Virus record (IMG/VR): IMGVR_UViG_3300030107_004238
Location: 1 to 64,000 of that record
Direction: 5' to 3' (one strand)
Source: a virus
Length of the DNA stretch: 64,000 nt
Shown: positions 27,501 to 53,377 of the stretch, piece after piece
How the letters are laid out: every line of letters starts with the position of its first letter
Position numbering within the stretch: position 1 is the first letter of the stretch
Translations under genes and position numbers: made by a program
Notes under the pieces: generated by a model
The model's input: the letters and a program-made list of their open reading frames with translations, nothing else
Told to the model about the DNA's origin: nothing
The model's database searches: none

Positions 27501-28759
27501 CACAATATGAAAGTACTGTTAAGTTTATGTTTAATGATTTAGTTGATGAAATTAAAAACTTTAACACTATTAATTATGAAGGTAGTACATCTAGATTATA
27601 TGAAAAAGAAACTGGTCAAGAAAATCAACTGTTAAAATCAGGTTGGTATACTGACTCTATAATTACCGATTTAGAATCTGCTGAAGTTGCTAGTTTTAAA
27701 GAGAGAGAGGGTAAATGGTTTAACAATATAACAGGTATAACAAAAACAGAAACAGATATAGATATTAAAGATTTTACATCGCAAGGACTGGGTGTATTAC
27801 TTGGTATATCAACTAGTCATGCGAACTATAAAACTCTATCTATAAAAGCGATTACACCGAGTTCTGAACCAGAAGTCGATGCTGTTACTAGTGGTAGTGG
27901 TGTTAATTATAATCCTGGCAGTGGAACAGTTGTTGATTTTAACTATCCTGAAGATACTGTTTATTTAGAAGATACTATAAATAACACAACAGGTATTACT
28001 GTTGAAAACGCAACACAAATATCATGGATTGAACACACTGCAAATACACCTCAAGATACAGATGGACCTGGTTTATATTATATAACTAATATTATTGGTG
28101 GGTTACAAAGAGGTAATAGATACTATATAGAAGCTGAAATAGAAAACTACTCTGGTAGCGCTACATCTGGTTTTTATGGGGCTAATATGGTTGATGGTAG
28201 TGCAATTAACACTGCAGAAAGAAATGATAATGGAAAAATTTATCGATATTTTACATATAACGATAATAAGTATTCTCAAGGAACGTTTGGTGAGCAAGGT
28301 GAAGGTATACATTTTTATAAAAGCGCTGAAACTAGTGGTACGGTTAAAAATATAAAATGTATAAATATAACACCTAAGGTTGATGATGTTACTTTTGTGG
28401 TAAACACATCTTCAACGGATAGAACACAAACAACTACTGAGATAAAAACAAATAAAGAGGTTGGTTCAACAGGTCTAGTGGCAACAACCCATGATTTTTA
28501 TATACATAGTCAAACTGTTAACGGTTTAAAGTATGCTGTAGCAGCTAGTCAGTTTCAGGTTAGAAGCTCAAACGACATGGTAGAAGTTGGAACAATTACA
28601 GATTTAGGAGCGGGAACATCAGGGTCGGGTTACTATGCTAATGTTGTTAAAATACCTATTACCGTGAACTATGGTGTTTCATCAGATCCGTTTCCAGATT
28701 TTAATATAGAATCTTATTTAAATATAATTGGCGAACCAACTTTAGCAATAGATCAATAA
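18569..28759 (+). CDS. giant tail-stabilisation-type protein with several carbohydrate-binding-like modules
   Basis: A 3396-residue virion protein. The N-terminus (NTFLGGKMNKDLDERLLPKN, EYRDALNVEVSTSQGDD) and the segments around residues 290-330 and 485-520 belong to a conserved core seen in tail stabilisation or 'muzzle' type proteins of marine podoviruses. The later core (about 1490-2090 and 2650-3080) includes FKKVFPRFAYRWKYKDGEYS and RIIFGNYTQQYDI. At least seven modules interrupt it, near residues 114-280, 333-484, 768-939, 1092-1210, 1319-1460, 2436-2620 and 3114-3270. Each has a 'GW' or NGSF start, a KG.TY.I-type strand and an IDNI.V- or GNIDDIEVYDV-type end, like CBM4/9 jelly rolls. 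It is likely exposed on the particle and could bind host polysaccharide. No signal peptide or enzyme motif is seen. Confidence 0.8.
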   Translation: MPEIKNTFLGGKMNKDLDERLLPKNEYRDALNVEVSTSQGDDVGALQNTWGNTVQSNLSDIISGGKCIGSIVSKEKDKIYWFIKGDDVDAIAEYDIKLRNVSPVLVDYGMEDTYIQSFTSTTLNPNAIGSGAPVWNEITIWDSQGGWSNASPESHGTEGKSWDITGGNATAVWGRAGNMRLFVDEINLIEGYEYEIEYEVTILRSDQESGVYLTNHGPKGENVRLDVESSGVKKTRWVQGDYVGGSGHQRDNAVWIHHNSLTANNSAFSIDNIRIRQVNRFLNFEDVEYITGINILDGMLFWTDGQNEPKKINIERCKAGSYDITNFSTTTFVGPELVNNGSFTGNANGWTNSVGTSLPNAGWDYNSNNIIAVSVTSGKAIHDRNANIKRGKTYQITFDISSWTGGAIKPVLVDEYSSRTIMNTSISDGVDGTKTFIITTGLTNDTHTVYNLHTAYTYASGFYLICDWGPLNCIIDNISVKEIAFDWNRTTKVKDATGSYTRNITEEDITLIKKYPLNAPNMRLFSTTKPEGSVIDSFCETTYNTTYNYGTPMLDGSGDTIRWMQAIQFTLAKDAIGHTHTKGITPSQVDQLVQIDISNAMLASLDSNTLGSTVQHPLYLDDKYNPADPTRWKTGNSLYVDNSFTNQEDYHKHAWQMWCSINEHFPHHVWLIRESGGLDSGYLVNQDKIGGRLYVRMSTNRHTFDDQMHDFKKGSRITVGSWGYNNNASFWTYKNEDDEIVVKPPGTKAVEYNHGPDGKIITDSQGTLFEPSIINPEDHYTNSVGKFGSGWSGDGNRYIGNISTTTTTQHGAIYPSPGVALNVNGSGTDGYQYLHDVVQGLQKGYTYTVRAKFTIIDDQLNDTTRPAAGFSHLNARDSEQMSTTNLQLSHTASHGGSTNIYIINKNFEARSTGTLSLFKRNGVSVIVSELQCRAVYSNPIRINPLVFSPKPDYEVGDLVKMTNVKKAPNGDDINVVVKLNKEINNAFQNIGTTDQDIKSWKHKTDTQPGGGGNWVTDDGERAAYPETWADGHAHSTTWSGTENCKINDPDFRVSTSSYLTAIQGGDGGDLSFSGGTTDLNDGSTNTADWTTGLQMIKNGSFNSAEPSDSNKLSYWYEVYSDASGSEDLGSWEWNQSGEVQINNPSASSTVGSGPAKQWANIQQINFGDDTTDRSSNDRLFFEPGGEYKYRFTVSNVTGTSGAGMFIRLYNNWGYAQTATTNTGTKPGWSVGDGSSDDQYGVITFRDWVSSGENVPAGWKESALDDGINRNKVIFHVNNPHQNDTSHADHERLDTCTLARVYVWANNNINRVNWGTNVGGGMDVITGTTAQIVSYPARADGVRGAGTGTFKLVEGNYYRMDYKISSTNYVSCGFNIANPVDESLSGSGCYIALWKHCAHAMHNLLGNYKQEGLTYLDVENGTHTVYWQQDKDANQLSILLGRGFAGNIDDIEVYDVTVTKTDMGKAGSNDIRKMFNAEIVSIDSSLAQLPPEDHTKWECELLDEEPIFKKVFPRFAYRWKYKDGEYSAISAFTEVAFVPDNDYKYDAKDGYNLAMENQVRRVILDDFDTMPHDVVELDILYKESNSNSIYTFTTIKGSDLDNFSKYEITKEKYHALVESKQLLRPYDNIPRKAKAQEISANRIIFGNYTQQYDITPSDEPTIEASLISQGVQSAIQSRKTIKSIREYQVGISYLDKYGRQSPVFSSENGLIQIDQKNAKDANSIIAGINNFPPDWVTHYKYYIKDNAASYYNISLDRFWQAEESNHVWLSFPSSDFNKLSVDDYLILKKGHDTDKALAPLRTAKYKILAKQGNAPEFIKMVRKSIGGRIYNTDGKGLHFFTQTSYNGNSGFYPSKNKTTFRLKGSVVHANNAFKEAVIDDQTGRYIRIGKQSGGRASYFSKYYEILHISRTMSPTADSSTADVWNQDDAYYEFTLVEPFDDDISFVGTSYTASRKLFIEYYREEIIDFDNAYEGKFFVKIAKDAAFDTHVGQKQKIEDSGYNIINAQDAYWAHVYENSANNTNADKGQDTDDWLWIRRVWGTDANGDPELQAGNFDFHVSSDGAGYDATTLDGAYNGSDVAEFPAVLAKTIDITASGASSATTWDNPYTQDWTGTWRKEDWGKQIDGSVPQRFCIDQSWSWNWSTGNDAYNGYKATEFNSRIGHGFIIGNSWCSFKFAGIGEIDEGTDNTAGSATDGGTNTEPDPSSSDIDTNTWNDAGDGELSAQWFDNHPLLQSLITEGTQFKWQDDPSETVYTILEVKNKGIIQNYDHKLPNGRKYGTSIDGYILDKSKENFGYRIDLILNKTIVWSPTATIGNGTGYNTDGTHSPLTAFTDSAAGTTSQIQIVEKRPSEKAYTSFNPAVFEIEPKERVDLNLYYETPETGMVLQDGMYIEALNNTSVNDEAYNVAGGNYFSDVNAGTIYKPGGSYALPYAKIFGDEMLDNSDFATADSGTNTGAAKWTINDTPNITATHDATNHRLEVIKPNGASGSFNNLQYDGDGTSGGDLITFQDGATYEILLDIEHLDNDENNYGGTPESTKLIVRGHDGSAWTSYYPLNPGVNWQAVPPSTSPTKHTFQFTWDSSQTGASGNQAKIFIELTDSTTNYKKKLILNNFSLKKVEYDETKPVCRIIHGEGYDWMNSSSRIFRINKNTWDDAPLFPEIYTPGQDLPLGITIRLSKRDQSGRIKYYKDYLLPTEQFVADNPENIFIPLETLKWHNAFAFGNGVESNRLRDDFNAVTIDKGPRVSTTLEETYKEEYLGSGLIFSGIYNSTSSVNKLNQFIAAESITKSLNPEYGSIQKLFTRNTNIVAFCEDKILKVLANKDALYNADGSVQMTATDKVLGQAIPFVGEYGISRNPESFANFGYRVYFTDRDRGAVLRLSADGLTPISDKDMISYFKYNLPNNNTMIGSYDENRDTYNLTLDETTVSFSEKVNGWTSFKSFLAESGTSINGEYYTFKNGDIWKHHTNALRNNFYNTQYESTVKFMFNDLVDEIKNFNTINYEGSTSRLYEKETGQENQLLKSGWYTDSIITDLESAEVASFKEREGKWFNNITGITKTETDIDIKDFTSQGLGVLLGISTSHANYKTLSIKAITPSSEPEVDAVTSGSGVNYNPGSGTVVDFNYPEDTVYLEDTINNTTGITVENATQISWIEHTANTPQDTDGPGLYYITNIIGGLQRGNRYYIEAEIENYSGSATSGFYGANMVDGSAINTAERNDNGKIYRYFTYNDNKYSQGTFGEQGEGIHFYKSAETSGTVKNIKCINITPKVDDVTFVVNTSSTDRTQTTTEIKTNKEVGSTGLVATTHDFYIHSQTVNGLKYAVAASQFQVRSSNDMVEVGTITDLGAGTSGSGYYANVVKIPITVNYGVSSDPFPDFNIESYLNIIGEPTLAIDQ

Positions 28760-34004: not shown

Positions 34005-37000
34005 ATGTTTGAAATTTACGAGGTCAATGGACAACGATATGAAGTTAGTCCTGATCAACTAGAAAAATTCTTTAAAGATTTTCCCAATGCTACTAAAGTG
34101 GGAAAGACAAGCGACTCTGCAAGTGCGGACCCGACTGCGGAGTCAAGCGATATGGGGTCCATATTGGAAAATGGTTCTTTGGCATTACCAGAAGCGAAAG
34201 ACAGCAAGGATATAGTAAGAAATTTACCTCTAATAGATGATGCTGTAACTTATGACAAAGATCCAGTTTTAAAAGAGAATATCTTAAATAGTTTTTTTAA
34301 TACAGACAATCTATTTAGACCTAGAGCTATTGACGAAACTCAAGCACCCGTAACCTTTAGCGGTATTGATAGACCTAGTTATGGTATACATAGTAATATA
34401 ACAGTACAAGGCACAGATACTGAATACAAAAACACAGAAGAAGAAGATTTAATAAATTATTTTGGAAAAGACAAATATAATTTATACAAAAAATATTTAG
34501 AAACTGGAGATTTAAAAACAGAAGATATACCAGAAAATCTTTCAAAAGGTTTTGAGGATATTAAAAATGAAGAAACGTCTAAAAGATCTAGTCGTCTAAA
34601 AAAACTATACTTAGACCAAAATGACCATATTAAAATCGGTGATAGTTTTTATGATGGTGTTGCTATGGATGAGGACGAAAGGGGATTATATTCAACTGAT
34701 TTTATAGATTTATACGGCGAACAGGAAGATCTAGCAAAAGAACTAACTAGCGGATGGAGAGATCACAGAGGTTATACAAGTAACAAAACTGTTTTCCAAA
34801 CACAGAAACAAAAGAAAGGTATTGCTGAGAAAACTGTTAAAATGCAAAATCAATACTTAACAGATTTATCTACTGTTTTAGAAGAAGATTATGCTGCTTA
34901 TGAAGAATATTTGAAAAGCTTAAATATTAAATCAGTTGATGATTTATCAACATTTATTAACGATCCCAATATAGATATAAATACTAGAAAAGAAGTTTTG
35001 GCTAAAAATAGAGTTATGTCAAAACGTTTAAATGATTTTAAAACAATGGCTACTAAGTTTGACGATAGAGTAGCTGCGCTAAGCGCTTTAGATAAAAGTT
35101 ACGATTGGGGTTATAGAGTAGGTTTATCTATTGAAAGAGATATATTTGGAGAGCTTTTTGGAGCTGGTAAGGCTATAGTAGCACTAGGCGCTCAAGAAAC
35201 ACTTGGTAAAGATTCTGAAATTTCAAAATATTTAAAAGATAGTTATGTTTCACATATAGATTATGTAGAAAGTTTAAAACAGAAAAAGGAAGCTAATTTA
35301 CCACAGGATACTAAATTTGAAGATATTAACAGTTGGAATAGTTTCGGTGATTTTGTTGGAGAACAGCTTGGAAATAATATACTTAGTGTATCAACAGCTG
35401 GTGCATATGGTTTAGCAGTTAAGACCGGTAGTAAGCAAGCTGCTAAATGGGCGGGGAGAGCGGTGTTAGGTACTTTCTTTGGCGTTGAAGGAATGGGAAA
35501 GGTATCTGAAATGGAAATCGCTCAAAAACATGCTGCGGAAAACATAAAGTTTATAGATGAGGCTTTAGCTGATGAGAACACAACTCCAGATGTTAGAATA
35601 AGGTTGGAGGAGCAAAAAGAATTTAATGAAAAAGCTTTAAACTATAGTCAAGCAGAAAGAGCTTTTATGGGGATGACGTATGGTGGTATTGCCGCTGTTG
35701 CAGAAAGAATGGGTACTATGCGTTGGATTGAAGATTTATATGGCACATCTAAAGTAGTAGGTCCGTTAACGTTTAAATCAGGTTTACATCGTGCTAAAAA
35801 CTTTATATTAAAAGTGCCTGGTACAGAGATGCTAGAGGAAACTGCAACGCAGGTCGGTCATAACTTAATGGACGTTTTGATATTAAAAGAAAATAAGAGT
35901 TTAATAGAAGGGCTTGATCCAGATTTCTTCGCTAGTGTCTTTGTAACATCTATGGCTATAGGTGGACCTGGTGTTGCTGGGGGAGTTCGTAATGCTTTTA
36001 GAGGCGCTCTTCAAACAAGAGAAGAAACTAAAAAATTTAGAGATTTAAAAAGCGAATATGCAGAAAATCATTTTATACTAAACCAAAGTCACAATAGATC
36101 ACAGGGAGGTATAAATAAAAAACAAGCTGATGTTATTAAAGCTAGACAAGCAGAAATACTAAAAGAAATTGAAGTACACGACATAAGTAGTTTTAATAAA
36201 ATAGCAGATCTTGACAGTAAACAAGTAGAAAATCTTTTTGAAGTAGATAGAAAGCAAAGAGAAATATGGAAAAGAAATGCTCAATTAGGAGCTATTGGAA
36301 AAGAAAATAAGTCTATACTAAGAGAATCGAAAAAACTAAATAAAGAATATAACGATTTGCAATCTGAAAAAGACGCTATATTAGAGTCTCCAGCTAGAAA
36401 AAGAGAAGACAAACTAAAAGAAACCGCTAAAGAACAAGGATTAGAAGAAAGCGCCGCGATGAAACAAGCTTGGAATTATGGTAGAGCCGCTTATTATGAC
36501 AATTTAGTTAAAGGGTTAGGTAGTAAAGTAAAGCGATTTGATGGCGAAAACATGGAACAAGATCTAAATAAGTATTTAGACGAGGCAATCAAATCTGGTA
36601 AGTTAAAAGATAAAAAGTTAAAAGACGGAACTGTTATTACGGCTGAGATGCAAAAGAAACAAATAATAGAATCTGCAAAAACAAAAAAGAATTTAGATGG
36701 TAGCTTAAATATTGGTGCTAATGGAACGTTTGTTGGTAATGATATTATAACTTTTGAAAATAATAGAAGGCTTAACATGCTTTATGGTAATGATTTGGAA
36801 AAAGCTGACGCTATGCAAGTTGCTATCCATGAATTGCAGCACAAGTATGATATAAATAAGGGATTGGTTAAAGACGGTAAAGTTGTTGCTTCTCATAAAC
36901 CTCTAGTAACAGCACTAAAACAACACGTGAAAGAGCTATATAAAAGAGGTGATATTGATAAGAAAACATATAACCAATTTAAACAAAGAGTAGATCAATA

Positions 37001-40000
37001 CAGTGATAAAGTAAATAAAAATAAAGTTGTTGATCAAACAGAATTATTAACATTATTAGGTACAATGAAACGTGCTGGAATGTTAAAAGAAGAAAAATCA
37101 TCTCCCTTGTACGCTGCTAAATCTTTTATAAATAAAGTAAGAGCAATGGTTCATGGTGATAACCATACGTTGTTAGATATGAATACAACTAAAGATGTGT
37201 TAAGATATATAGACACGTTTAACAAAAGAGTTGAGCAAGGTAAAAAAGTAGCAGCCACAATACCTGAGGAAGAAGCAATAAGTAAATTATCTAAAGGTAT
37301 GACTAATAAAGCCGCTTCTGACAATGTTCAGCGTATATACGAAGAACAAGGTGAAGGTGGCGCTATGGATATTATAGAACAGTTTAAACCTATTACGAGT
37401 AGAATAGCGGAAAGAAGAAGAGAGGCTCCTAATTATGATAAGGAACTTTTAATGAGTGAAATTGAAATAGGTGAAAGAGGTATATTGGATTTAATTAGGG
37501 AATACAAACCAGAATCAGGAGTGCCGTTAGCTGCTTATATAAATAAGTTTTTACCAGCGAGAGCTATTGAGGCATCAAAAAGAGTATTGGGTGAAGAGTT
37601 TATCGAAGATATATCAGAAAGAGTTGATATAGCAGCTGAAGAAGTTACACAGGAGGTTAAAACAAAACCTAAGAAAAAGAAAATAGTTTTAGCAGATAGA
37701 TTAGGTGTTACAGAAGAAGTCGCAAAAGCTATTAAGAAAATAATGCCTAAAATAGATTTTAATAAAGAGACTTTTAAAACTTTAAAAAATCAAATTCCTG
37801 AGATAACAGGCGAGATGTTTGGTATAGCTCCTAAAAAAATAAAAAACCTAGCTAATTTAACAAAAAAAGAGTTACAATCAGCCCAAATGTTTATTAATAA
37901 AAACGCAAATTTATTAATCAATATGTTACCAGAGGGTGCTACAGCCGGTGGTACAGCCACAGGTGTTCCCAATACTTTATTAAAAGCGTTTTATACTAAA
38001 ACTGATAGAGCTAAAATGGTTAAAACTGGTAGTAAAGCTGGTTTAGCAGTACAGCAAAAAAATAAAATAGATAAAAAAGAGTTTTTAGAAACATTTGGTA
38101 TTATAGATGGTAAACCTATCCGTACAGATAGAAACACATCAGCTAGAGTATTAGCATTAGCTAATTTAACTGGTAAAATGATAACCAACCAAGCTGTTAG
38201 ACAATCGTTAATTAGCGGCGGTAAAACCGTAGGTGAGGTAACTTCTTTGTCAGACGGTAAGTCTGTGACCATGTTTAGTTTAGGTAGCAGAATAAAAGTA
38301 ACTGGTCCAATCTCTGAACAAGCGCAAAGATTAGCAGATCAAATAGGTAAAAAAGCCACGTATGATAATATGGTTAAAGCTGCTGGTTTAGATATAGATA
38401 CTGGCGAGTTAAAATTAAAACCTATAGATTTAACAACTGAAAAAGGACGGCAAGAATATATTGGTTTTATTGTAGAGGTATTAGCACCTGTGTTTCCTAA
38501 AGATATTTTACTTGCAATGTCTGGTTCTTTTGCTAGAGGGGATAGTGCAATTGAAAAAGCTAATAAAAATAAGTTTTTATTCCAAAACAAAGAGCAGTTT
38601 GAAATATTTTTAGAGACGCTAGAAGCAACGGGTGTTGTTTTTGGACAAGATATGACGGTAGAAGATAGAAATGATATATTAAACGCTATTAAACGTGAAG
38701 GTTATGGCAAAGCTACTAGTAAAACGCAAAATAAAAAAATGAAGGATGAAGATCTTAAAGCTAGTAAAAAAAGAGGCTTTAAGTTAATATGGAAAAGTAT
38801 ACAAGATAATATTCAAAATGATCAACGTACTATACCTGGCTTTGCACTTATGCTTTCTTCTTCTAGTAGGTTCCAAGGACATTTTACTAGAACTGGCGCT
38901 ATTATTGATTTTGTTAATAGTTTAACTGGAAAAAATAGAGAAGAACACACGTCCCCCATAACAGCTCTTGGTAAATATTTGTTTTTGCACGCAATAACTG
39001 GTGATTTATTTACAGGTGGAAAAAATAGCATATTTGAAAACGCAACTAAATCTTACTTTCAAGGTTCTTTACCAGTTTTTATGGATAATAGATTAAAACT
39101 AAAAGGTAGTTATGATTACTCATCATTACCACCAATAGAACATTTAGAAGGTATATTAAAAGGTGATATATCAATATGGGCTAGATACTTTCATCCTAAT
39201 GTAAATAATAATTTTAATACAGATCTTGACTCGATGTCTAAAGAAGATATTGCAAATGAGTTACATAAAATAGGTGGTATAAATCCTAACGTTATATACT
39301 TAGCAAATGGAAACACTATAGCTCAAGAGTTTGGTGTTGATGTAAACGTTAAAATAACACCACAAATAGTGGCGGCACAGCAAGATTTAATATACAGGAT
39401 GGCCATTGGAGAAAAAATTAGCAAAAGCAAAATAAAATCAGTTCTTGATTCTGCTGTTAATTTAAAAATTGAAAAAAATTTAAAAGAAAATAAAACATTA
39501 AATGATGCCGCTGTTCAAGGTAGAAAAATCATTAAGGAATCTAAAGGTATTACTGTTTTAGATTTTGATGATACACTAGCAACAACTAAGTCTGGTGTTA
39601 GAGCAACTATACCTAATTTAGATGGAACACCGAAACCTGGTAGAAAAGCTATACTATTAGCTGGTGGGGCTGGTAGTGGTAAATCAAATGTTGTTAAACA
39701 GTTAGGTTTAGTTAAAGATGGTTTTAAAGTTGTTAATCAAGATATAGCCTTAGAATGGTTAAAGAAAAACGCTGGTATACCTACAGATATGAGAGATTTA
39801 ACTAGGGAACAACTATCTACACTTGGTAAACTAAGTTGGGAAGCTAGAAAAATTGCAAAAAGAAAGTATGGTAAATTTAAAGGTCAAGGAGATGGGGTTG
39901 TAATTGATGGTACCGGAGGATCTGTTAAAAACATTCAAACACAGAAAGCAGAATTAGAAGCTGCAGGTTACGATGTTCAAATGTTATTTGTAGAAACATC

Positions 40001-42686
40001 ACTGGATGTAGCTTTAGAAAGAAATAAACTTAGAAAAGAAAGATCATTAAGAGATAGTATTGTAAAAAGAAACCACGAAGCGGTACAAAAAAATAAATCT
40101 GAATTTAAAGAAATATTTGGCAAAGGATTTACAGAGATTAATACAGATAACTTAAAACAAAACGATCCAATACCAGCTAATGTATCAAATAAGATAAATG
40201 AATTTGTTACTGGCTATGAAAAAAGAAGATTAGATGCTGAAGAATTCGCTAGAGAAGGAGCTGACTTACTAGCGCAGGGAGCTAAGTTTGATTTTTCAGA
40301 ATTTAACGTTGTCATGGAAGGACAAACAGCACCATTGTTTAACAAGGCAATGAAATTACAAGATAAGTTTGGTAGTAAAGATATGTTCGTGTTAACAGCT
40401 AGACCAGCAGAATCAGCGCCACATATACATGAATTTTTAAAAGCTAATGGTTTAAATATACCATTAAAAAACATAACTGGTCTTGCTAATTCTACTGCAG
40501 AAGCTAAAGCGCTTTGGATAGCTGATAAAGTTGGTGAAGGTTATAATGATTTTTATTTTGCTGATGATGCTTTGCAAAACGTTCAAGCTGTACAAAACAT
40601 GTTAGATCAATTCGATGTTAAGTCTAAAGTCCAACAAGCTAAGATTAATTTTAGCAAAGGAGCTAAAGTACAGTTTAATGATATAATGCAAGACGTAACT
40701 GGCATTGATTCTAATAAAAGATTTTCATTGGCAAAAGCTAGAAAACGTGGAGAAAAGAAAGGAAGATTTAGACCTTTTATTCCACCATCACATGAGGATT
40801 TTATAGGGTTATTATACAACTTTATAGGTAAAGGAGAAAAAGGTAATCAACATAGAGACTTCTTTGAAAAGAACTTAATAAAACCATTGAATAGAGCTTA
40901 TAATGAATTGAATGCTGCTAAACAAGTTATATCTAATGATTATAAAAACTTGATAAAGAAGTTTCCTGATACTCGTAAAAAATTAACAAAGAAAACTCCA
41001 GATGGTGATTATACTTATGGTGACGCTTTGAGAGTATATCTTTGGGATAAGGCTGGGTTTGAAATACCGGGTATGTCTAAAACAGATGTAAAAGAATTAA
41101 CTGATTTAGTAAAGTCAGATCCTAGTTTACAATCATTTGCGGATGCAGTTGGTTTAATATCTAGACAGAAAGAAGGGTATACAAAACCAAAAGAAGAGTG
41201 GGAAGTAGGTGATATAAGAACAGATTTAGCGGATGCTACTATGGACACTGGTAGACAAAAGTTTTTTGGAGAGTTTATAGAAAATGCAGATATAATTTTT
41301 GATAAAGAAAATTTAAATAAAATAGAAGCTGCTTTTGGAAGAGACTTTAGAGAAGCTTTAGAAGATATGTTATACAGAATTAAGAATGGTAGAAAGAGGC
41401 CAACTGGTAACAACAAACTTGTAAATAGATTTACTGAATGGATAAACGGAGCTGTTGGATCAACAATGTTTATAAACACTAGATCAGCCGTATTACAGCA
41501 ATTATCTATGGTTAACTTTTTAAATTTTGAAGACAACAATATATTTACAGCTGCCAAAGCTTTTGCAAATCAAAAACAATTTTGGAAAGATTATGCTAAA
41601 ATATTTAATTCAGATTTCCTAAAACAAAGACGGTCAGGTATAGCTTTTGATGTAAACGGCGCTGAATTAGCTCAGGCAGTATCTAAGTCTAAAGAGCCTT
41701 TTAGAGCCGCTATAAGACATTTATTACAAAAAGGTTTTATATTAACCCAGTTAGGTGATAGTAATGCGATAGCTATGGGTGGTGCTACATTTTATAGAAA
41801 TAGAGTTAATAAATATTTAAAAGATGGTTTAAGTCAGAAGGAAGCCGAGACAAGAGCTTGGGATGATTTTGTTGCGATAGCTGAAACCACGCAGCAATCA
41901 GCTAGAGCTGATATGACATCGGGACAGCAAAATTCACCTCTTGGTAAATTTATATTAGCTTTTCAAAATGTTACTTCTCAGTATAACAGAATAATGAAAA
42001 AAGCTGGTTTGGATTTAATCAATAGAAGAAAATCACCACCTTATACTAGCCAAGTAAAAAGTGATATGGCTAATATTTCTAAAATAATATATTACGGGGC
42101 TATACAAAACGCTGTGTTCTATGGGTTACAAACAGCTTTATTTGCAATGATGTTTAGTGATGATGAAAAAGACGAAGAATTCTTTAAAAAGAAAAGAGAT
42201 CGGGTGATTCATGGTAGTATAGATAGTATACTAAGAGGTATGGGTGTTGGTGGAGCTATAATCTCTACGCTTATAAACACAGCTATGAAATTTGCAGCTG
42301 AACAAAATAAAGATTGGAATAGTTCAACTAGCATCTTAATGAATGAATTACTTCAATTATCACCACCTCTTGGTATTAAAGCTAGAAAACTAACTAGTGC
42401 TGAAAAAACACTAAAATATAATAAGAAGACTATTGAAAAAATGGATACGTTTGATTTAGAAAACCCGCTTTGGGAAGCTACATCAAACATTGTTGAGGGC
42501 ACAACAAACGCTCCAGTTAACAGATTGCATAGATTAGTTACAAATACTGGAGAAGCTCTTAACGCTGAAAATGAATGGTGGCAAAGATTAGCATTGGGCT
42601 TAGGATGGAGCACTTGGGATGTTGGTATAAATACAAAGGAAAAATTGAAGAAGAAAAAGAGTAAAAGAAAAATTAGATTAAATTAA
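34005..42686 (+). CDS. giant internal virion protein with zincin motif and kinase-in-phosphatase domain
   Basis: A 2893-residue multidomain protein, probably ejected with the DNA. Recognisable parts in order follow. A possible amphipathic/membrane region lies about residues 470-680. A zincin motif IHELQHKYD has His942, Glu943 and His946. A conserved segment at about 1125-1210 contains GERGILDLIREY and GVPLAAYINKFLPARAIEAS. HAD motif I is DFDDTLA (Asp1853, Asp1855). A P-loop kinase of zeta-toxin/polynucleotide-kinase type follows, with GGAGSGKS (Lys1893) and VVIDGTGG. The HAD fold then resumes with FDFSEFN, VLTARP (Thr2131) and FYFADDALQNV (Asp2187, Asp2188). The C-terminal helical region includes PLGKFILAFQNVTSQYNRIM near residue 2650. 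Splitting of the HAD by a kinase would give a 5'-kinase/3'-phosphatase-like pair. Function of the rest is unknown. Confidence 0.8.
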   Translation: MFEIYEVNGQRYEVSPDQLEKFFKDFPNATKVGKTSDSASADPTAESSDMGSILENGSLALPEAKDSKDIVRNLPLIDDAVTYDKDPVLKENILNSFFNTDNLFRPRAIDETQAPVTFSGIDRPSYGIHSNITVQGTDTEYKNTEEEDLINYFGKDKYNLYKKYLETGDLKTEDIPENLSKGFEDIKNEETSKRSSRLKKLYLDQNDHIKIGDSFYDGVAMDEDERGLYSTDFIDLYGEQEDLAKELTSGWRDHRGYTSNKTVFQTQKQKKGIAEKTVKMQNQYLTDLSTVLEEDYAAYEEYLKSLNIKSVDDLSTFINDPNIDINTRKEVLAKNRVMSKRLNDFKTMATKFDDRVAALSALDKSYDWGYRVGLSIERDIFGELFGAGKAIVALGAQETLGKDSEISKYLKDSYVSHIDYVESLKQKKEANLPQDTKFEDINSWNSFGDFVGEQLGNNILSVSTAGAYGLAVKTGSKQAAKWAGRAVLGTFFGVEGMGKVSEMEIAQKHAAENIKFIDEALADENTTPDVRIRLEEQKEFNEKALNYSQAERAFMGMTYGGIAAVAERMGTMRWIEDLYGTSKVVGPLTFKSGLHRAKNFILKVPGTEMLEETATQVGHNLMDVLILKENKSLIEGLDPDFFASVFVTSMAIGGPGVAGGVRNAFRGALQTREETKKFRDLKSEYAENHFILNQSHNRSQGGINKKQADVIKARQAEILKEIEVHDISSFNKIADLDSKQVENLFEVDRKQREIWKRNAQLGAIGKENKSILRESKKLNKEYNDLQSEKDAILESPARKREDKLKETAKEQGLEESAAMKQAWNYGRAAYYDNLVKGLGSKVKRFDGENMEQDLNKYLDEAIKSGKLKDKKLKDGTVITAEMQKKQIIESAKTKKNLDGSLNIGANGTFVGNDIITFENNRRLNMLYGNDLEKADAMQVAIHELQHKYDINKGLVKDGKVVASHKPLVTALKQHVKELYKRGDIDKKTYNQFKQRVDQYSDKVNKNKVVDQTELLTLLGTMKRAGMLKEEKSSPLYAAKSFINKVRAMVHGDNHTLLDMNTTKDVLRYIDTFNKRVEQGKKVAATIPEEEAISKLSKGMTNKAASDNVQRIYEEQGEGGAMDIIEQFKPITSRIAERRREAPNYDKELLMSEIEIGERGILDLIREYKPESGVPLAAYINKFLPARAIEASKRVLGEEFIEDISERVDIAAEEVTQEVKTKPKKKKIVLADRLGVTEEVAKAIKKIMPKIDFNKETFKTLKNQIPEITGEMFGIAPKKIKNLANLTKKELQSAQMFINKNANLLINMLPEGATAGGTATGVPNTLLKAFYTKTDRAKMVKTGSKAGLAVQQKNKIDKKEFLETFGIIDGKPIRTDRNTSARVLALANLTGKMITNQAVRQSLISGGKTVGEVTSLSDGKSVTMFSLGSRIKVTGPISEQAQRLADQIGKKATYDNMVKAAGLDIDTGELKLKPIDLTTEKGRQEYIGFIVEVLAPVFPKDILLAMSGSFARGDSAIEKANKNKFLFQNKEQFEIFLETLEATGVVFGQDMTVEDRNDILNAIKREGYGKATSKTQNKKMKDEDLKASKKRGFKLIWKSIQDNIQNDQRTIPGFALMLSSSSRFQGHFTRTGAIIDFVNSLTGKNREEHTSPITALGKYLFLHAITGDLFTGGKNSIFENATKSYFQGSLPVFMDNRLKLKGSYDYSSLPPIEHLEGILKGDISIWARYFHPNVNNNFNTDLDSMSKEDIANELHKIGGINPNVIYLANGNTIAQEFGVDVNVKITPQIVAAQQDLIYRMAIGEKISKSKIKSVLDSAVNLKIEKNLKENKTLNDAAVQGRKIIKESKGITVLDFDDTLATTKSGVRATIPNLDGTPKPGRKAILLAGGAGSGKSNVVKQLGLVKDGFKVVNQDIALEWLKKNAGIPTDMRDLTREQLSTLGKLSWEARKIAKRKYGKFKGQGDGVVIDGTGGSVKNIQTQKAELEAAGYDVQMLFVETSLDVALERNKLRKERSLRDSIVKRNHEAVQKNKSEFKEIFGKGFTEINTDNLKQNDPIPANVSNKINEFVTGYEKRRLDAEEFAREGADLLAQGAKFDFSEFNVVMEGQTAPLFNKAMKLQDKFGSKDMFVLTARPAESAPHIHEFLKANGLNIPLKNITGLANSTAEAKALWIADKVGEGYNDFYFADDALQNVQAVQNMLDQFDVKSKVQQAKINFSKGAKVQFNDIMQDVTGIDSNKRFSLAKARKRGEKKGRFRPFIPPSHEDFIGLLYNFIGKGEKGNQHRDFFEKNLIKPLNRAYNELNAAKQVISNDYKNLIKKFPDTRKKLTKKTPDGDYTYGDALRVYLWDKAGFEIPGMSKTDVKELTDLVKSDPSLQSFADAVGLISRQKEGYTKPKEEWEVGDIRTDLADATMDTGRQKFFGEFIENADIIFDKENLNKIEAAFGRDFREALEDMLYRIKNGRKRPTGNNKLVNRFTEWINGAVGSTMFINTRSAVLQQLSMVNFLNFEDNNIFTAAKAFANQKQFWKDYAKIFNSDFLKQRRSGIAFDVNGAELAQAVSKSKEPFRAAIRHLLQKGFILTQLGDSNAIAMGGATFYRNRVNKYLKDGLSQKEAETRAWDDFVAIAETTQQSARADMTSGQQNSPLGKFILAFQNVTSQYNRIMKKAGLDLINRRKSPPYTSQVKSDMANISKIIYYGAIQNAVFYGLQTALFAMMFSDDEKDEEFFKKKRDRVIHGSIDSILRGMGVGGAIISTLINTAMKFAAEQNKDWNSSTSILMNELLQLSPPLGIKARKLTSAEKTLKYNKKTIEKMDTFDLENPLWEATSNIVEGTTNAPVNRLHRLVTNTGEALNAENEWWQRLALGLGWSTWDVGINTKEKLKKKKSKRKIRLN

Positions 42687-44449: not shown

Positions 44450-44671
44450 ATGTGGAAATTATTTCAAGACAAAAACGATATAAATGAAAAGAATATAATT
44501 GGCTTTATATCTTTTGGAGTAATGGTGTTATTTGCAATTACAGATCTTATAACTAGTTTCATATATGAGAACGGAACGTTAGTGATTAATGATACAATAT
44601 ATAATTCTTTTGTTCTTGTAACACTAGGGTGTTTTGGCATTAGTACATTTGAAAAAATTAAAACAAAATAA
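44450..44671 (+). CDS. small two-TM membrane protein, holin-like
   Basis: A 73-residue protein from the ATG at 44450, two bases after the upstream stop; an in-frame ATG at 44438 would overlap the upstream gene by 11 nt. Two hydrophobic segments (about residues 16-37 and 49-66) with a short polar turn and charged ends fit a class II holin or a small envelope protein. It shares one base with the next start. A better holin candidate is at 3296-3682, so this could be an antiholin or unrelated. Confidence 0.6.
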   Translation: MWKLFQDKNDINEKNIIGFISFGVMVLFAITDLITSFIYENGTLVINDTIYNSFVLVTLGCFGISTFEKIKTK

Positions 44672-47600
44672 TGAAAAAGATTTTATATTTACTAGGATTA
44701 ATAATATTAATATCGTGTAGCGCACAAAAAAAATGTTGTGCACAGGTAAACACCTTTCCATGGGTGTATGACTTTGAGAGTATTATAGGATTGGAACAAG
44801 AAGTGAATGATGATGGTGATTGGTGGTTAATGCAAGGTCCAACAACTTCTGTTAACACTGGTCCTCCAGGAGATCACACTTATGGCAATGGTATTTATTA
44901 TTATGTAGAATCTTCTTCGCCTAACTTCCCTAACAAAACGTTTGTGGCGTATACACCTAAATTTGATGTATCACAAACACCAGGTAAAGTGTTATCTTTC
45001 TGGTACCATATGTATGGCGCTGCTATGGGTGATTTGGAGGTTGGTTATATAGATAATGGTGGTTATACAAGTTTAGGTGTTATATCTGGGAATCAAGGGA
45101 ATCAATGGAAATTCGCTTACTACCCTATAGCCGCTACAGATTCTTTTACAATAGCTTTTACAGCTGTAACTGGTTCTAGTTATACTAGTGATATAGCTAT
45201 AGATGATATAATGGTTAGCGATCCGTTTAACGTTGTGTTTGGTTGTACTGATATTGTTTCTTCTAACTACGATTCAACAGCTACGCATGATAATGGTAGT
45301 TGTATTTATTATTTTGGGTGTATAGATCCTACAGCAACTAATTATAATCCTTGGGCAAATGTTGATGATGGTAGTTGTGTGCAAAACGTTTCTTGTGACA
45401 CAACCCAATCTTTAATTGATGTGGCTATAAAATTAGACAATTGGCCTAGTGAAACTTCTTGGGAAGTAGTAGCTAATGGTAGCGTGATATATTCTGTTCC
45501 AACTGGTACTTATGATTACACACAAACAGGACAAACAGTACACACGCAGGTTTGTATACCTATAAGTGATACAATAGTATTTACGATTAACGATACTTAT
45601 GGTGATGGTATTGGAGGTGGTTCTGTAGTTGGTAGTTGTTTAGTAACTAACTTAGATTGTGAAGACACATTATTCTTATTAAGTCCACCAAATTTTGGAT
45701 ATACAGCGTCGTCTAACCCATATATATCTGATACTTGTAACAATGATAGTATTGTATTTGGCTGCACAACTCCTAGTTATTTAGAATATGATTCTTTAGC
45801 TACACACGATGATGGAAGTTGTATGACATTAGCTACTTATGGCTGTACAGATCCAGCTGCATTTAATTATGATCCAGCAGCTGATAGAATGCTGTTGACA
45901 TCGCCTTGTACTTACGATTTAATACTGTATGATGATGGTGGTGATTCATGGGGAGCTTGTTGGTTAGGTGTTGAGCAGGGGGATTCTTTATGGCAATTTA
46001 AAATAGATCAAAATGGAGTTTATTCTGATACGTTTGCATTAACACTTAATTCTAACGACGAGGTGTATTTTTACTACTTTGAAATACCTACACCTCAACA
46101 GAATCCACAACAGCTAGATATACAAACAATACAAAACTCTTTTAAAGTAGAAAACAATTATGGAGTTATAATACACGAAGGTAATAATCCTTGGCCTGGT
46201 CCAAATGAAAATAAATTAAGAAATTATAGAAACGCTCTAGATATATATGAAGCGCAACCATTCTGTGGGGTCGAATGTATACCTGTTGTTGTAGGTTGTA
46301 TGGATAGTGTAGCTTACAACTATAATGATTTAGCTAATACCAACGACACTTGTTATTACAACCCCGGTTGTACTAACCCAGGGTACTTAGAATATTATAC
46401 ACAAAATTATACAGCAGATATAGATGATGGGAGTTGTTTAACCTTAGCAATATTTGGTTGCACAGATTCCACTGCTTTTAATTATAATAATACAGCCAAT
46501 GTAGACAATGGTGGGTGTATCGCGATAGTACTAGGGTGTATGAATTCTTTAGCTTTTAATTACAATCCTCAAGCTAATACACCTGATACTTGCATACCAG
46601 TTATATATGGCTGTACTTCCCCTATCGCTTTTAACTATGATAGCTTAGCTAATACAGATGATGGTAGTTGTATAGGGGTGGTTTATGGGTGTACTGATAG
46701 CACAATGTGGAATTTTATGCCTAGTGCGAATGTTGATGATTCTAGCTGTATACCATTTATCTATGGTTGTATGGATCCTACTATGTTTAATTATGATCCA
46801 AGTGCTAATACAGACAACGGGGCGTGTATACCATTTGTTTATGGGTGTATTGATTCTACAATGTTTAATTACGATCCATTAGCGAATACCGATAATGGAA
46901 GTTGTATTCCATTTATTTATGGATGTACTAATCCAATAGCATTGAATTACGATCCTTTAGCTAATACCGATGATTTCTCTTGTGTGTTACCTATATATGG
47001 ATGTATGGATTCTACAGCGTTTAATTATAACCCACTTGCTAATGTAGATAACGGAAGTTGTATTCCTATTATATTAGGATGCACGGATCCAACGGCGTTA
47101 AACTATTGTGATAGTTGTAATACAGATGATTTTAGTTGTATACTTCCTATATATGGATGTACAGATAGCACTATGTTTAATTATAATCCTTTAGCAAATG
47201 TTGATAACAATTCCTGTATCCCTTATATTTATGGCTGTACTGACCCTAGTATGCTTAATTACAACCCTAACGCTAACACCGAAGACTTCAGTTGTGTTCC
47301 TTATATTTATGGGTGTACTGATAGTATTGCTCTTAATTATGATTCACTTGCTAATACTGACAATGGCTCGTGCATTTCTATTGTTGAAGGATGCATGGAC
47401 CCTTCAGCGTGGAATTATGATATACTAGCTAACGTTAACGATTCTAACTCTTGTTTGTATAACGCCGGTTGTGTTACTGGCGCAGGAAACCCTTATTGGT
47501 TAAATGATCCTTGCTACGCTTGGGTTATTTCAGTAGATGATTACTGTTGTGAAAACGAATGGGATACAATATGCCAAGCTACTTATAATTATTGTGAAGG

Positions 47601-47847
47601 AAGCTGGTTAGGGCCAATACCAACTAGATTAAGTTTAGAAGATTTAATTGTTTACCCAAATCCAACTAGCGATAAAATAAATATAAACAAAAAAGTTGAC
47701 ATTAGATTAATTAATACCTTAGGGGATGTGATTATATTAAAAAACAATATAAACGTCTTAGACGTGTCCTATTTAAGTCCTGGAATGTATACAATACAAA
47801 TAATGTATAAAAATAAATCTTTTGTAAAAAGAATTATTAAAGAATGA
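44671..47847 (+). CDS. secreted MAM-domain protein with GCTD repeats and T9SS sorting domain
   Basis: A 1058-residue surface protein. The N-terminus MKKILYLLGLIILISCSAQ is an export signal with a lipobox-like LISC. Residues about 27-190 read as a MAM-type domain (PWVYDFESIIG, KVLSFWYHMYG). About nineteen Cys-containing repeats of roughly 26 residues follow, of type YGCTD-x2-AFNYNP-x-AN-x-DNGSCIP, two pairs of which are separated by larger beta domains. The last 70 residues (IVYPNPTSDKININ ... LSPGMYTIQIMYKNKSFVKRIIKE, in pieces) are a type A T9SS C-terminal sorting domain, which directs Bacteroidota proteins across the outer membrane. A phage gene using the host T9SS is unusual. It was probably acquired from a flavobacterial host. 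It may coat or remodel the infected cell's surface. Confidence 0.85.
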   Translation: MKKILYLLGLIILISCSAQKKCCAQVNTFPWVYDFESIIGLEQEVNDDGDWWLMQGPTTSVNTGPPGDHTYGNGIYYYVESSSPNFPNKTFVAYTPKFDVSQTPGKVLSFWYHMYGAAMGDLEVGYIDNGGYTSLGVISGNQGNQWKFAYYPIAATDSFTIAFTAVTGSSYTSDIAIDDIMVSDPFNVVFGCTDIVSSNYDSTATHDNGSCIYYFGCIDPTATNYNPWANVDDGSCVQNVSCDTTQSLIDVAIKLDNWPSETSWEVVANGSVIYSVPTGTYDYTQTGQTVHTQVCIPISDTIVFTINDTYGDGIGGGSVVGSCLVTNLDCEDTLFLLSPPNFGYTASSNPYISDTCNNDSIVFGCTTPSYLEYDSLATHDDGSCMTLATYGCTDPAAFNYDPAADRMLLTSPCTYDLILYDDGGDSWGACWLGVEQGDSLWQFKIDQNGVYSDTFALTLNSNDEVYFYYFEIPTPQQNPQQLDIQTIQNSFKVENNYGVIIHEGNNPWPGPNENKLRNYRNALDIYEAQPFCGVECIPVVVGCMDSVAYNYNDLANTNDTCYYNPGCTNPGYLEYYTQNYTADIDDGSCLTLAIFGCTDSTAFNYNNTANVDNGGCIAIVLGCMNSLAFNYNPQANTPDTCIPVIYGCTSPIAFNYDSLANTDDGSCIGVVYGCTDSTMWNFMPSANVDDSSCIPFIYGCMDPTMFNYDPSANTDNGACIPFVYGCIDSTMFNYDPLANTDNGSCIPFIYGCTNPIALNYDPLANTDDFSCVLPIYGCMDSTAFNYNPLANVDNGSCIPIILGCTDPTALNYCDSCNTDDFSCILPIYGCTDSTMFNYNPLANVDNNSCIPYIYGCTDPSMLNYNPNANTEDFSCVPYIYGCTDSIALNYDSLANTDNGSCISIVEGCMDPSAWNYDILANVNDSNSCLYNAGCVTGAGNPYWLNDPCYAWVISVDDYCCENEWDTICQATYNYCEGSWLGPIPTRLSLEDLIVYPNPTSDKININKKVDIRLINTLGDVIILKNNINVLDVSYLSPGMYTIQIMYKNKSFVKRIIKE
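46453..47460 (+). repeat. tandem GCTD coding repeats
   Basis: Thirteen contiguous copies of a unit of about 78 nt within the T9SS-sorted protein gene, each encoding Gly-Cys, an (F/L)NY core, Ala-Asn and a C-terminal Ser/Asn-Cys pair. DNA of adjacent copies has diverged, so the array is old rather than a fresh expansion. Translated in other frames it yields the shadow ORFs at 46685-46882 and 47198-47428. Confidence 0.85.
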
Positions 47848-51496: not shown

Positions 51497-51506
51497 TTTT
51501 AGTTAA
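51497..51506 (-). promoter_or_regulatory. TTAACTAAAA leader motif
   Basis: On the minus strand the decamer lies 9 nt before the ATG at 51487. It overlaps the stop codon of the ribonucleotide reductase gene, so it must serve both as coding end and as leader. Confidence 0.45.
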
Positions 51507-53377
51507 AGGCTTGTTATTTCGCATGATCCACCGGCACAAGCCAATTCGCCTGATAGATCGGTATTGTCAGCATCTTCTATTACATTTTCTAAACTTATGT
51601 TATGTAATTTAGAAACTAATTTATCAAACTCTTTTTTAGTTATATCTTCAAAAGGAGCTTGAGTATATGTTCCACCATCATAAGGTAAAACAGATAAACC
51701 ATTGTAACACTCTCTATTATCCCACATCCATTTACCAGCTTTATTCCACTCATCTTTTCTTAAGCTAATTGTAGCAGATACATTATGGGTATTTGAACCA
51801 ATCCTATGACCAGTTTTAACCCATTCAGTAGCAACTCTTTTAACTCTTTTCAACAAGTCAAAAGCAGATTCAGTTCTTAATATAGAACCTTTAGGCGCTG
51901 ATTGTGGTATTTCGATAACAGCCGTGTCGTGTGGTCTAAAATATTCATCTTGTACTAATTCTGGATGGTGTATAGCAAGATATTTATATATAGCCTCGTT
52001 TTTACCTACACGAAGTCTTCTAATATAATAATCGTTGTGCCAAGCATGAATACCTGAAGATGTTCCAAGCACAAGAGATGTTGTCCCTGCTGGTTTAACA
52101 CATGTTGTTCTAGCAGCTTTATTTATCCCTATTAGTTTTGCTACTCTCGTGTTTTCTCTTTTTACGATACTTGCAGCGGCCTTCATATCCAGCGGGAGCA
52201 CAGCGGCACTCGCGATTCCTGTCATTGACACACCTATAAGTGCGTCTTTCTCTGTTGTTTCTTGCCATATTTCTCTTAGATAGTGGAATTCCGTATAACC
52301 TGCTTGAAGCGTTCCAATGAAGGCTGCAGCTTTAACTCGATCATTCAGGTCTTCTTGGTCTGTGACGTCACTTACATTAACTTCACACAGATTACAGAAC
52401 TGATAAGGCCTTAGTGCTATTTCACAGCAAGGATTAGTTCCCCAATCCTTATCATGGTTGAAATATATTCCTGGTTCACCAGCCCCGGATAATTCAATAC
52501 GTTTCCACAAATCTAAGAAAAATTCTTTAGTAACTTTGTGTCGCATTAGTACAGCAGAGTTATTTGCTCTACCTCTTTGTGGGTTTTTTTCCCACCAACT
52601 TCCAGATTTACACGAAATCATTTCTTCATCATATGCTGAAAACAAACTTATTAACGCTGCTCGTCTGATACCACCAGCGAGTACAGCATCAGCAATATGA
52701 CAAATAATATCATGGACTTCAAGAGTAGTAAGTTGTGTTCCATCTTGTTTTGATTCTAGTATTCCTTTTATTTTTACAATACATTCTTTTAAAGGTTGAG
52801 GTCCTGGTGCTTTTCCACCTGAGGTCACAAGCATAGCTCCCTTTGGTCTAATATCAGAATAATCAAATTTTATCTTAGATGATCTCTTAGAGCCTAAATA
52901 AGACTTAATTAAAACTTTTATTGCATCTGACCAACCCTCAATACTATCTCCAATAACAAATCTTCTAGTTCTACCTTGAAATGGTTTTGTTATATGTGGA
53001 AGAGAGGTAATATGATGTCTTTGAACACTATAACCAACACCGCAACCAGATAGCAAAAGGAACATACACTCACTAAAGCTATCGACATGATCGATAGGTA
53101 AGTAACTACAGTTATATAATCTATTCGGACTGATTTCAATTGGCTTACCACTAAACTGAAGCGAACGCATACTTGGTAAAACTTTTTTCTTATAGACATA
53201 TCTATATACTTCTTCTATTTGATTAAATAATTTTGGATATTTTTTTTGGTGCATTTCCTTGTTTCTTGAGACTAGTTCTTCCCATGTTTCTCTTCTATTG
53301 AGTTCTGGAAGATACTTAGCATACTTCATGTAGATTGTTAAATCTGAAAGTATTTTTTTATTAAGATCTTTATCCAT
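51503..53377 (-). CDS. nrdJ: class II (adenosylcobalamin-dependent) ribonucleotide reductase
   Basis: A 624-residue monomeric class II reductase of the triphosphate-reductase type, which makes dNTPs using a B12-derived radical. Active-site residues match the Lactobacillus-type enzyme: Cys90 (RLYNCSYL), Asn315-Cys317-Glu319 (NPCCE), Cys328 (FCNLCEVNV) eleven residues after Cys317, TTCVKPAGTTSLVLGTSSG, and the C-terminal CAGGSC (Cys614, Cys619) that re-reduces the active site. It needs oxygen-independent B12 rather than a separate NrdB, so it suits a host that makes or imports cobalamin. It is somewhat short (about 740 residues is usual). Its start overlaps the upstream 45-residue gene by 8 nt (ATGGATAA). 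Confidence 0.93.
   Translation of the reverse strand: MDKDLNKKILSDLTIYMKYAKYLPELNRRETWEELVSRNKEMHQKKYPKLFNQIEEVYRYVYKKKVLPSMRSLQFSGKPIEISPNRLYNCSYLPIDHVDSFSECMFLLLSGCGVGYSVQRHHITSLPHITKPFQGRTRRFVIGDSIEGWSDAIKVLIKSYLGSKRSSKIKFDYSDIRPKGAMLVTSGGKAPGPQPLKECIVKIKGILESKQDGTQLTTLEVHDIICHIADAVLAGGIRRAALISLFSAYDEEMISCKSGSWWEKNPQRGRANNSAVLMRHKVTKEFFLDLWKRIELSGAGEPGIYFNHDKDWGTNPCCEIALRPYQFCNLCEVNVSDVTDQEDLNDRVKAAAFIGTLQAGYTEFHYLREIWQETTEKDALIGVSMTGIASAAVLPLDMKAAASIVKRENTRVAKLIGINKAARTTCVKPAGTTSLVLGTSSGIHAWHNDYYIRRLRVGKNEAIYKYLAIHHPELVQDEYFRPHDTAVIEIPQSAPKGSILRTESAFDLLKRVKRVATEWVKTGHRIGSNTHNVSATISLRKDEWNKAGKWMWDNRECYNGLSVLPYDGGTYTQAPFEDITKKEFDKLVSKLHNISLENVIEDADNTDLSGELACAGGSCEITSL

Follow-up and report, generated by a model that had tools for sequence, protein, structure and literature searches.

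The window analysed here comprises the first 64,000 nucleotides of the IMG/VR virus record IMGVR_UViG_3300030107_004238 (71,968 bases), and one of its genes is a giant open reading frame of 2893 residues (34005..42686) on the plus strand, as are all features of its product described below. The N-terminal two thirds of this protein are mosaic: in the conservation profile, residues 1-1200 are matched by just 2-58 of 323 related loci, and the mosaic part (window 34005-39400, residues 1-1800) is common to few relatives. The C-terminal third, which starts with a HAD phosphatase domain, is conserved, with residues 2101-2893 matched by 266-315 of the same loci; the conserved region behind the HAD domain (40647..42683) carries no Pfam or PHROG match. 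The mosaic part contains the sequence HELQH (residues 942-946, 36828..36842) with an aspartate three residues on, a zincin-type motif of the kind found in phage polyvalent proteins, with which HELQHKYD agrees as a motif only; it is present in only 11 of 177 long homologues of the giant protein. All of these homologues are metagenomic and derive from uncultured marine phages.

The giant gene is among the last large genes, downstream of the terminase, portal and virion structural genes. The terminase is 65% identical to that of the uncultured Manatee Spring podovirus and 46% identical to those of the Flavobacterium elemo phages, while the portal shows 53% and 43% identity to the same phages and 47% to Maribacter phage Panino. 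Giant genes occupy the same position in the elemo phages (3694 aa, annotated as a structural protein), in Panino (1829 aa) and in the Manatee Spring phage (3859 aa). None of the three has significant sequence similarity to the giant ORF, and comparing them at profile level with its conserved C-terminal region likewise yielded nothing significant (best E 0.029, for the Manatee gene, with a collinear match). Gene order and synteny nevertheless make it plausible that the product is a virion protein. The host is likely a flavobacterial member of Bacteroidota; a look-up in the genome collection returned MAG contigs only and thus no reliable host. Other genes of the window deserve a brief record. 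A 1058-aa protein adjoining the structural genes (44671-47847) combines a MAM domain with a Por_Secre_tail sorting domain (PF18962, E 7e-10). A 3396-aa protein of the structural region (18569-28759) carries the C-terminal domain of a crAss-type muzzle (PF25729, E 3.7e-7); by its terminase and portal, the phage itself matches podoviruses of flavobacteria. The opposite strand encodes a putative ribonucleotide reductase (51503-53377; PF02867, PF21995), which includes a class II insertion domain.

The HAD domain is split in two. Its N-terminal half (residues 1849-1868, 39549..39608) contains motif I, DFDDT with Asp1853 and Asp1855, and the first flap strand, and its C-terminal half (residues 2075-2214, 40227..40646) contains the second flap strand and motifs II-IV. 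The motifs named in the first-pass annotation lie where it had placed them: DFDDTLA from residue 1853, VLTARP at 2129-2134 with the motif II triplet TAR at 2131-2133 (Thr2131), and FADDALQNV from 2185 with the motif IV pair Asp2187-Asp2188; motif III is supplied by Lys2168 or Lys2175. The domain scores below the Pfam cut-offs, the hand-joined empty form of the HAD found no match in 50,697 phage records, and a sequence search of the PDB with the single window protein produced only chance matches to BCL6. The assignment is secure despite the sub-cut-off score, with DxDxT, the TAR threonine, the motif III lysine and the DD pair retained in practically all of 267 HAD homologues, with and without inserts, and with the Rossmann-like core strands of a HAD formed in an AlphaFold2 model. 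The apparent exceptions among the motifs are FTDD and FVDD variants, truncated contigs and one kinase-bearing allele, L003. In the latter some 12 residues at motif IV are missing, aspartates included (near 9900-10044), which is either a real loss or a sequencing error.

Between the two halves, in place of a hairpin loop of 6-8 residues, lies a cassette of residues 1869-2074 (39609..40226), its borders set by the profile of empty alleles. It is a P-loop kinase, scoring above the Pfam cut-offs for both AAA_33 (E 4.5e-8, 33.9 bits against 27) and Zeta_toxin (E 3.9e-7, 30.1 bits against 22.3). The Walker A sequence GGAGSGKS (residues 1887-1894, 39663..39686) has its glycines and its lysine, Lys1893, invariant in 38 kinase alleles. 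It is followed by VNQD (Asn1911 and Asp1913, 39732..39743), the asparagine and aspartate of which are invariant in stand-alone homologues too; by analogy with the Pnkp and zeta families, this segment is a candidate to provide the general base. Asp1968, Thr1970 and Gly1971 of VVIDGTGG (residues 1965-1972, 39897..39920) are invariant in A3, and the lid segment RNKLRKER (Arg2006, Arg2010, Arg2013; 40020..40043) aligns with RNKNRTDR of Clostridium thermocellum Pnkp. The AlphaFold2 model of the segment, built with 38 aligned sequences, contains both folds at a mean pLDDT of 86.4, and the kinase is flanked by the paired flap strands of the HAD (model residues 28-33 and 234-239); the pTM of 0.69 leaves the relative placement of kinase and HAD uncertain. 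Because the flanking strands are those of the flap, the kinase sits at its hairpin turn, which we take to be the classical C1 cap site in the nomenclature of the HAD superfamily. The domain architecture described from the sequence at first reading, a kinase placed between HAD motif I and the later motifs, is therefore real, and it is unusual.

What kind of kinase is it? A profile search against solved structures puts C. thermocellum Pnkp (E 1.5e-7), zeta toxin (2e-7) and T4 Pnkp (3e-6) on a par, with adenylate kinases behind them, and Foldseek agrees, its top match being the C. thermocellum Pnkp kinase (4gp7, TM 0.72 by target). The fold is thus of the Pnkp type, though zeta toxins and adenylate kinases match as well. 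The lid pattern RN..R..R aligns with Pnkp, the DGTG segment with the 'EGTG' of zeta toxins. We would place the enzyme in the Pnkp/zeta/AAA_33 group, within which neither sequence nor predicted fold clearly favours Pnkp over zeta toxin or the reverse. Among kinases encoded on their own, the nearest are the products (about 220 aa, 34% identity) of unnamed genes in pelagiphage HTVC008M and in Methylophilales phage Melnitz; Agrobacterium phage Atu_ph07 has another homologous kinase within a protein of 778 aa. Further members of the family occur among the uncultured viral proteins of BFVD, and one is named UDP-N-acetylglucosamine kinase, presumably by similarity.

When the 359-aa region was used as a query, loci matched across its whole range at either about 1075 nt or about 480 nt, and the shorter ones proved to encode this HAD (75-82% identity) but no kinase. 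Using a profile built on empty alleles, we extracted the HADs from all fetched IMG/VR loci and measured the length between the two halves, obtaining 267 distinct domains. The socket is empty in 202 of these, being closed by a turn of 6-8 residues, typically MPDGTTG. A kinase occupies it in 42 (40 found by profile, plus L010 and L021), a helical piece of 53-54 aa in seven, an ART-PolyVal-like domain of 138-146 aa in five, and a 191-aa domain with a YYHGTS motif in three; the remainder are single inserts of 74 and 154 aa, four loops of 14-29 aa and two unreadable cases. Querying with kinase or ART sequences biases the collection towards filled sockets. In a sample drawn by a DNA pattern outside the insert, 93 of 106 alleles were empty, and filled sockets are therefore a minority. 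At the DNA level the cassette stands in place of the DGTxG-turn codons, and the sequence around it can still be aligned, as between L249 and L267, the flanks of which are 87-90% identical. The insertion is beyond chance, because dozens of independent contigs share it and many sister contigs possess the exact empty site. An assembly chimera or a mis-binned contig might be suspected where all sequences are metagenomic, yet the same joint recurs in dozens of contigs from different samples, with the frame open through both joints, and the independent contigs refute this reading.

The occupants other than the kinase are less easily named. The ART-PolyVal profile reaches at best 20.3 bits on the ART1 alleles, below its cut-off of 31.2; an LPD14 match in relatives is likewise below cut-off, and the PHROG matches of the inserts are weak. 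When an ART-like allele was modelled, pLDDT exceeded 90 over most of the HAD, and part of the insert was poorly predicted; Foldseek found no ART fold in this model, the best matches being HADs with E >= 5e-3. Judging by these sequence resemblances, the occupant in some relatives is probably an ADP-ribosyltransferase.

Across 236 alleles, neither the HAD nor the ~420 residues that follow it contain another insertion of at least 30 aa, with the exception of a second place directly after the HAD. This place is empty in the window (about 40600-40660) and holds inserts of 160-500 aa in 11 of the 236 alleles (L067, L106, L116, L121, L130, L150, L155, L216, L242, L016 and L043). Most of these inserts close with a degenerate version of the HAD terminus (AVKxVLDxxDVKSxxQ), and one of the domains resembles the family of the 154-aa insert found in the first socket of L219.

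The occupancy pattern bears directly on the function that the first-pass annotation had proposed, namely an enzyme that combines 5'-kinase and 3'-phosphatase activities to heal nucleic-acid ends, its kinase lying within the HAD and not in tandem with it. The conserved active sites of both domains, the Pnkp-like lid, and the leading place of Pnkp in the profile and fold searches are all consistent with such an enzyme, and T4 Pnkp aligns over both domains in Foldseek. That superposition, however, has an rmsd of about 25 A, and the domain arrangement therefore differs; zeta toxin scores as high as Pnkp, and solved structures yielded no match to the HAD profile. More damaging, kinase and phosphatase are not conserved as one unit: three quarters of the HADs (202/267) do without the kinase, unrelated domains take its place in the same socket of other alleles, and the kinase occurs without this HAD in other phages. 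We consider end healing an improbable function of this pair, and the cassette pattern would better fit the annotation's second option, a kinase that phosphorylates a host molecule.

A more specific version of the latter proposition is that the kinase is a zeta-type enzyme phosphorylating UDP-N-acetyl sugars and thereby weakening the host wall or metabolism at entry. The Zeta_toxin match above cut-off and the zeta profile match point in this direction, as does the annotation of the database neighbour, and there is precedent in the zeta-like domains of polyvalent proteins, which have been proposed to act during entry (PMC5512222). Pnkp fits equally well, however, and the UDP-N-acetylglucosamine kinase annotation was made by similarity only, so that this substrate is a possibility to be entertained with some doubt.

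The inserts appear to have been exchanged repeatedly. On an unrooted tree of 167 tips, built from 520 aa of C-terminal flank without the insert, at least 28 switches of insert class are required (14 for the presence of the kinase, 8 for that of the ART-like domain), gains and losses not being separated and flank recombination possibly inflating the count. Many sister pairs with different insert states are well supported (SH-aLRT 95-100), examples being joined with an SH-aLRT of 100 (L058/L070, L225/L066, L252/L111, L028/L268, L037/L095) or 99 (L023/L092, L309/L258), and the window groups with two empty relatives at 97. Kinase alleles partly cluster on this tree, which indicates some vertical inheritance. 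Individual comparisons display the exchange more directly. The ART2 inserts of L249 and L252 are 92.8% identical in nucleotides, with a plateau of 98% mid-insert, between flanks of 58-71% on both sides, and the tract of high identity stops at the socket edges. The flanks of L037 and L095 are 91-93% identical, while the former carries a kinase and the latter the helical piece; the L037 kinase is 84-89% identical to kinases of a distant clade, and its tract of high identity takes in parts of the HAD. The kinases of L004 and L005 are 91% identical against 61% downstream. As judged from such alignments, the cassette is transferred independently of the rest of the giant protein, and the conserved HAD halves may serve as recombination arms.

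The absence of the insert from most alleles (93 of 106 in the pattern-based sample) implies that it is dispensable, which could suggest a neutral or decaying passenger tolerated in the HAD loop. The kinase does not evolve like one. The Walker A, VNxD, DGTG and RNxxR motifs are intact in all 40 inserts found by profile and invariant among alleles only about 40-60% identical, and dN/dS lies far below 1, at 0.02-0.17 for most close pairs and 0.30 for the window against L002, indicative of purifying selection. Moreover, different folded domains have been acquired repeatedly. We regard the passenger interpretation as highly unlikely; the conserved active sites predict both HAD and kinase to be active.

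By sequence comparison, then, the locus displays an insertion, an exact empty site, several alternative occupants and two conserved active sites. We hypothesize that the HAD domain is a conserved socket for exchangeable enzyme cassettes in a polyvalent-type giant phage protein rather than an obligate 5'-kinase/3'-phosphatase, and we hold this to be the probable explanation. The giant protein would be packaged and enter the host with the DNA; the HAD would dephosphorylate, and the kinase phosphorylate, a host or host-defence molecule; and recombination would swap the cassettes, allowing the phage to change its effector with the conserved C-terminal part untouched. A bolder extension, which we think rather unlikely, is that the socket HAD also regulates the enzyme plugged into it: since the cassette lies above the phosphatase active site, where a cap would be, catalytic turnover or ligand occupancy of the HAD might switch the kinase or ART on after delivery, and recombination at the one loop would draw on a shared effector pool. 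Under the socket hypothesis itself, effector turnover in polyvalent-type phage proteins would be possible through whole-domain swaps confined to a single loop of a conserved enzyme. Alleles that are naturally empty, kinase-bearing or ART-like and differ little near the site make the role of delivered phage effectors directly testable, and the socket offers a search handle, as any sequence flanked by the DFDDTL and TAEEFA strands is a candidate effector domain.

How does this arrangement compare with known systems? T4 Pnkp likewise unites a P-loop kinase and a HAD phosphatase in one chain, and the Pnkp kinases of C. thermocellum and T4 are the closest solved folds to the window kinase; in T4 Pnkp, however, the domains stand in tandem, whereas the window kinase lies inside the flap of a HAD that most relatives possess without it. 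Zeta toxins (PF06414, e.g. 1gvn) share the kinase core, the P-loop and the GTG motif, but only the family core matches, and no antitoxin gene was recognised here in a non-systematic look for one. C1-capped HAD hydrolases also bear an insertion at the flap hairpin, but here the 'cap' is an independent putative catalytic domain, polymorphic between close relatives. The cassettes of polymorphic toxins (PMC3482391) resemble the socket in pairing a constant carrier with exchangeable effector domains spread by recombination; their variable part is C-terminal, whereas here it is internal, and no immunity gene was recognised.

The closest parallel is offered by the polyvalent proteins (Iyer et al. 2017, PMC5512222), which include zincin peptidases (phage members with an aspartate three residues after HExxH), ARTs and zeta-like kinases. 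The giant ORF resembles them as a very large multidomain phage protein with a mosaic N-terminal part, in which disparate activities (HAD, kinase and HExxHxxD) are gathered in one polypeptide, and in the placement of its gene where the structural genes end. Of their repertoire, the zeta-like kinase scores above cut-off, a zincin is suggested by its motif only, and the ART-PolyVal and LPD14 matches in relatives fall below cut-off. The words 'phosphatase', 'inserted' and 'insertion' are absent from the text of PMC5512222, where 'had', among the matches listed, is the verb, and a search of open-licence papers found no description of such a HAD socket, for which reasons this variant of polyvalent-protein modularity appears to be undescribed. 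Its distinguishing feature with respect to the polyvalent proteins is that the putative effectors are inserted at one exact loop of a carrier enzyme domain.
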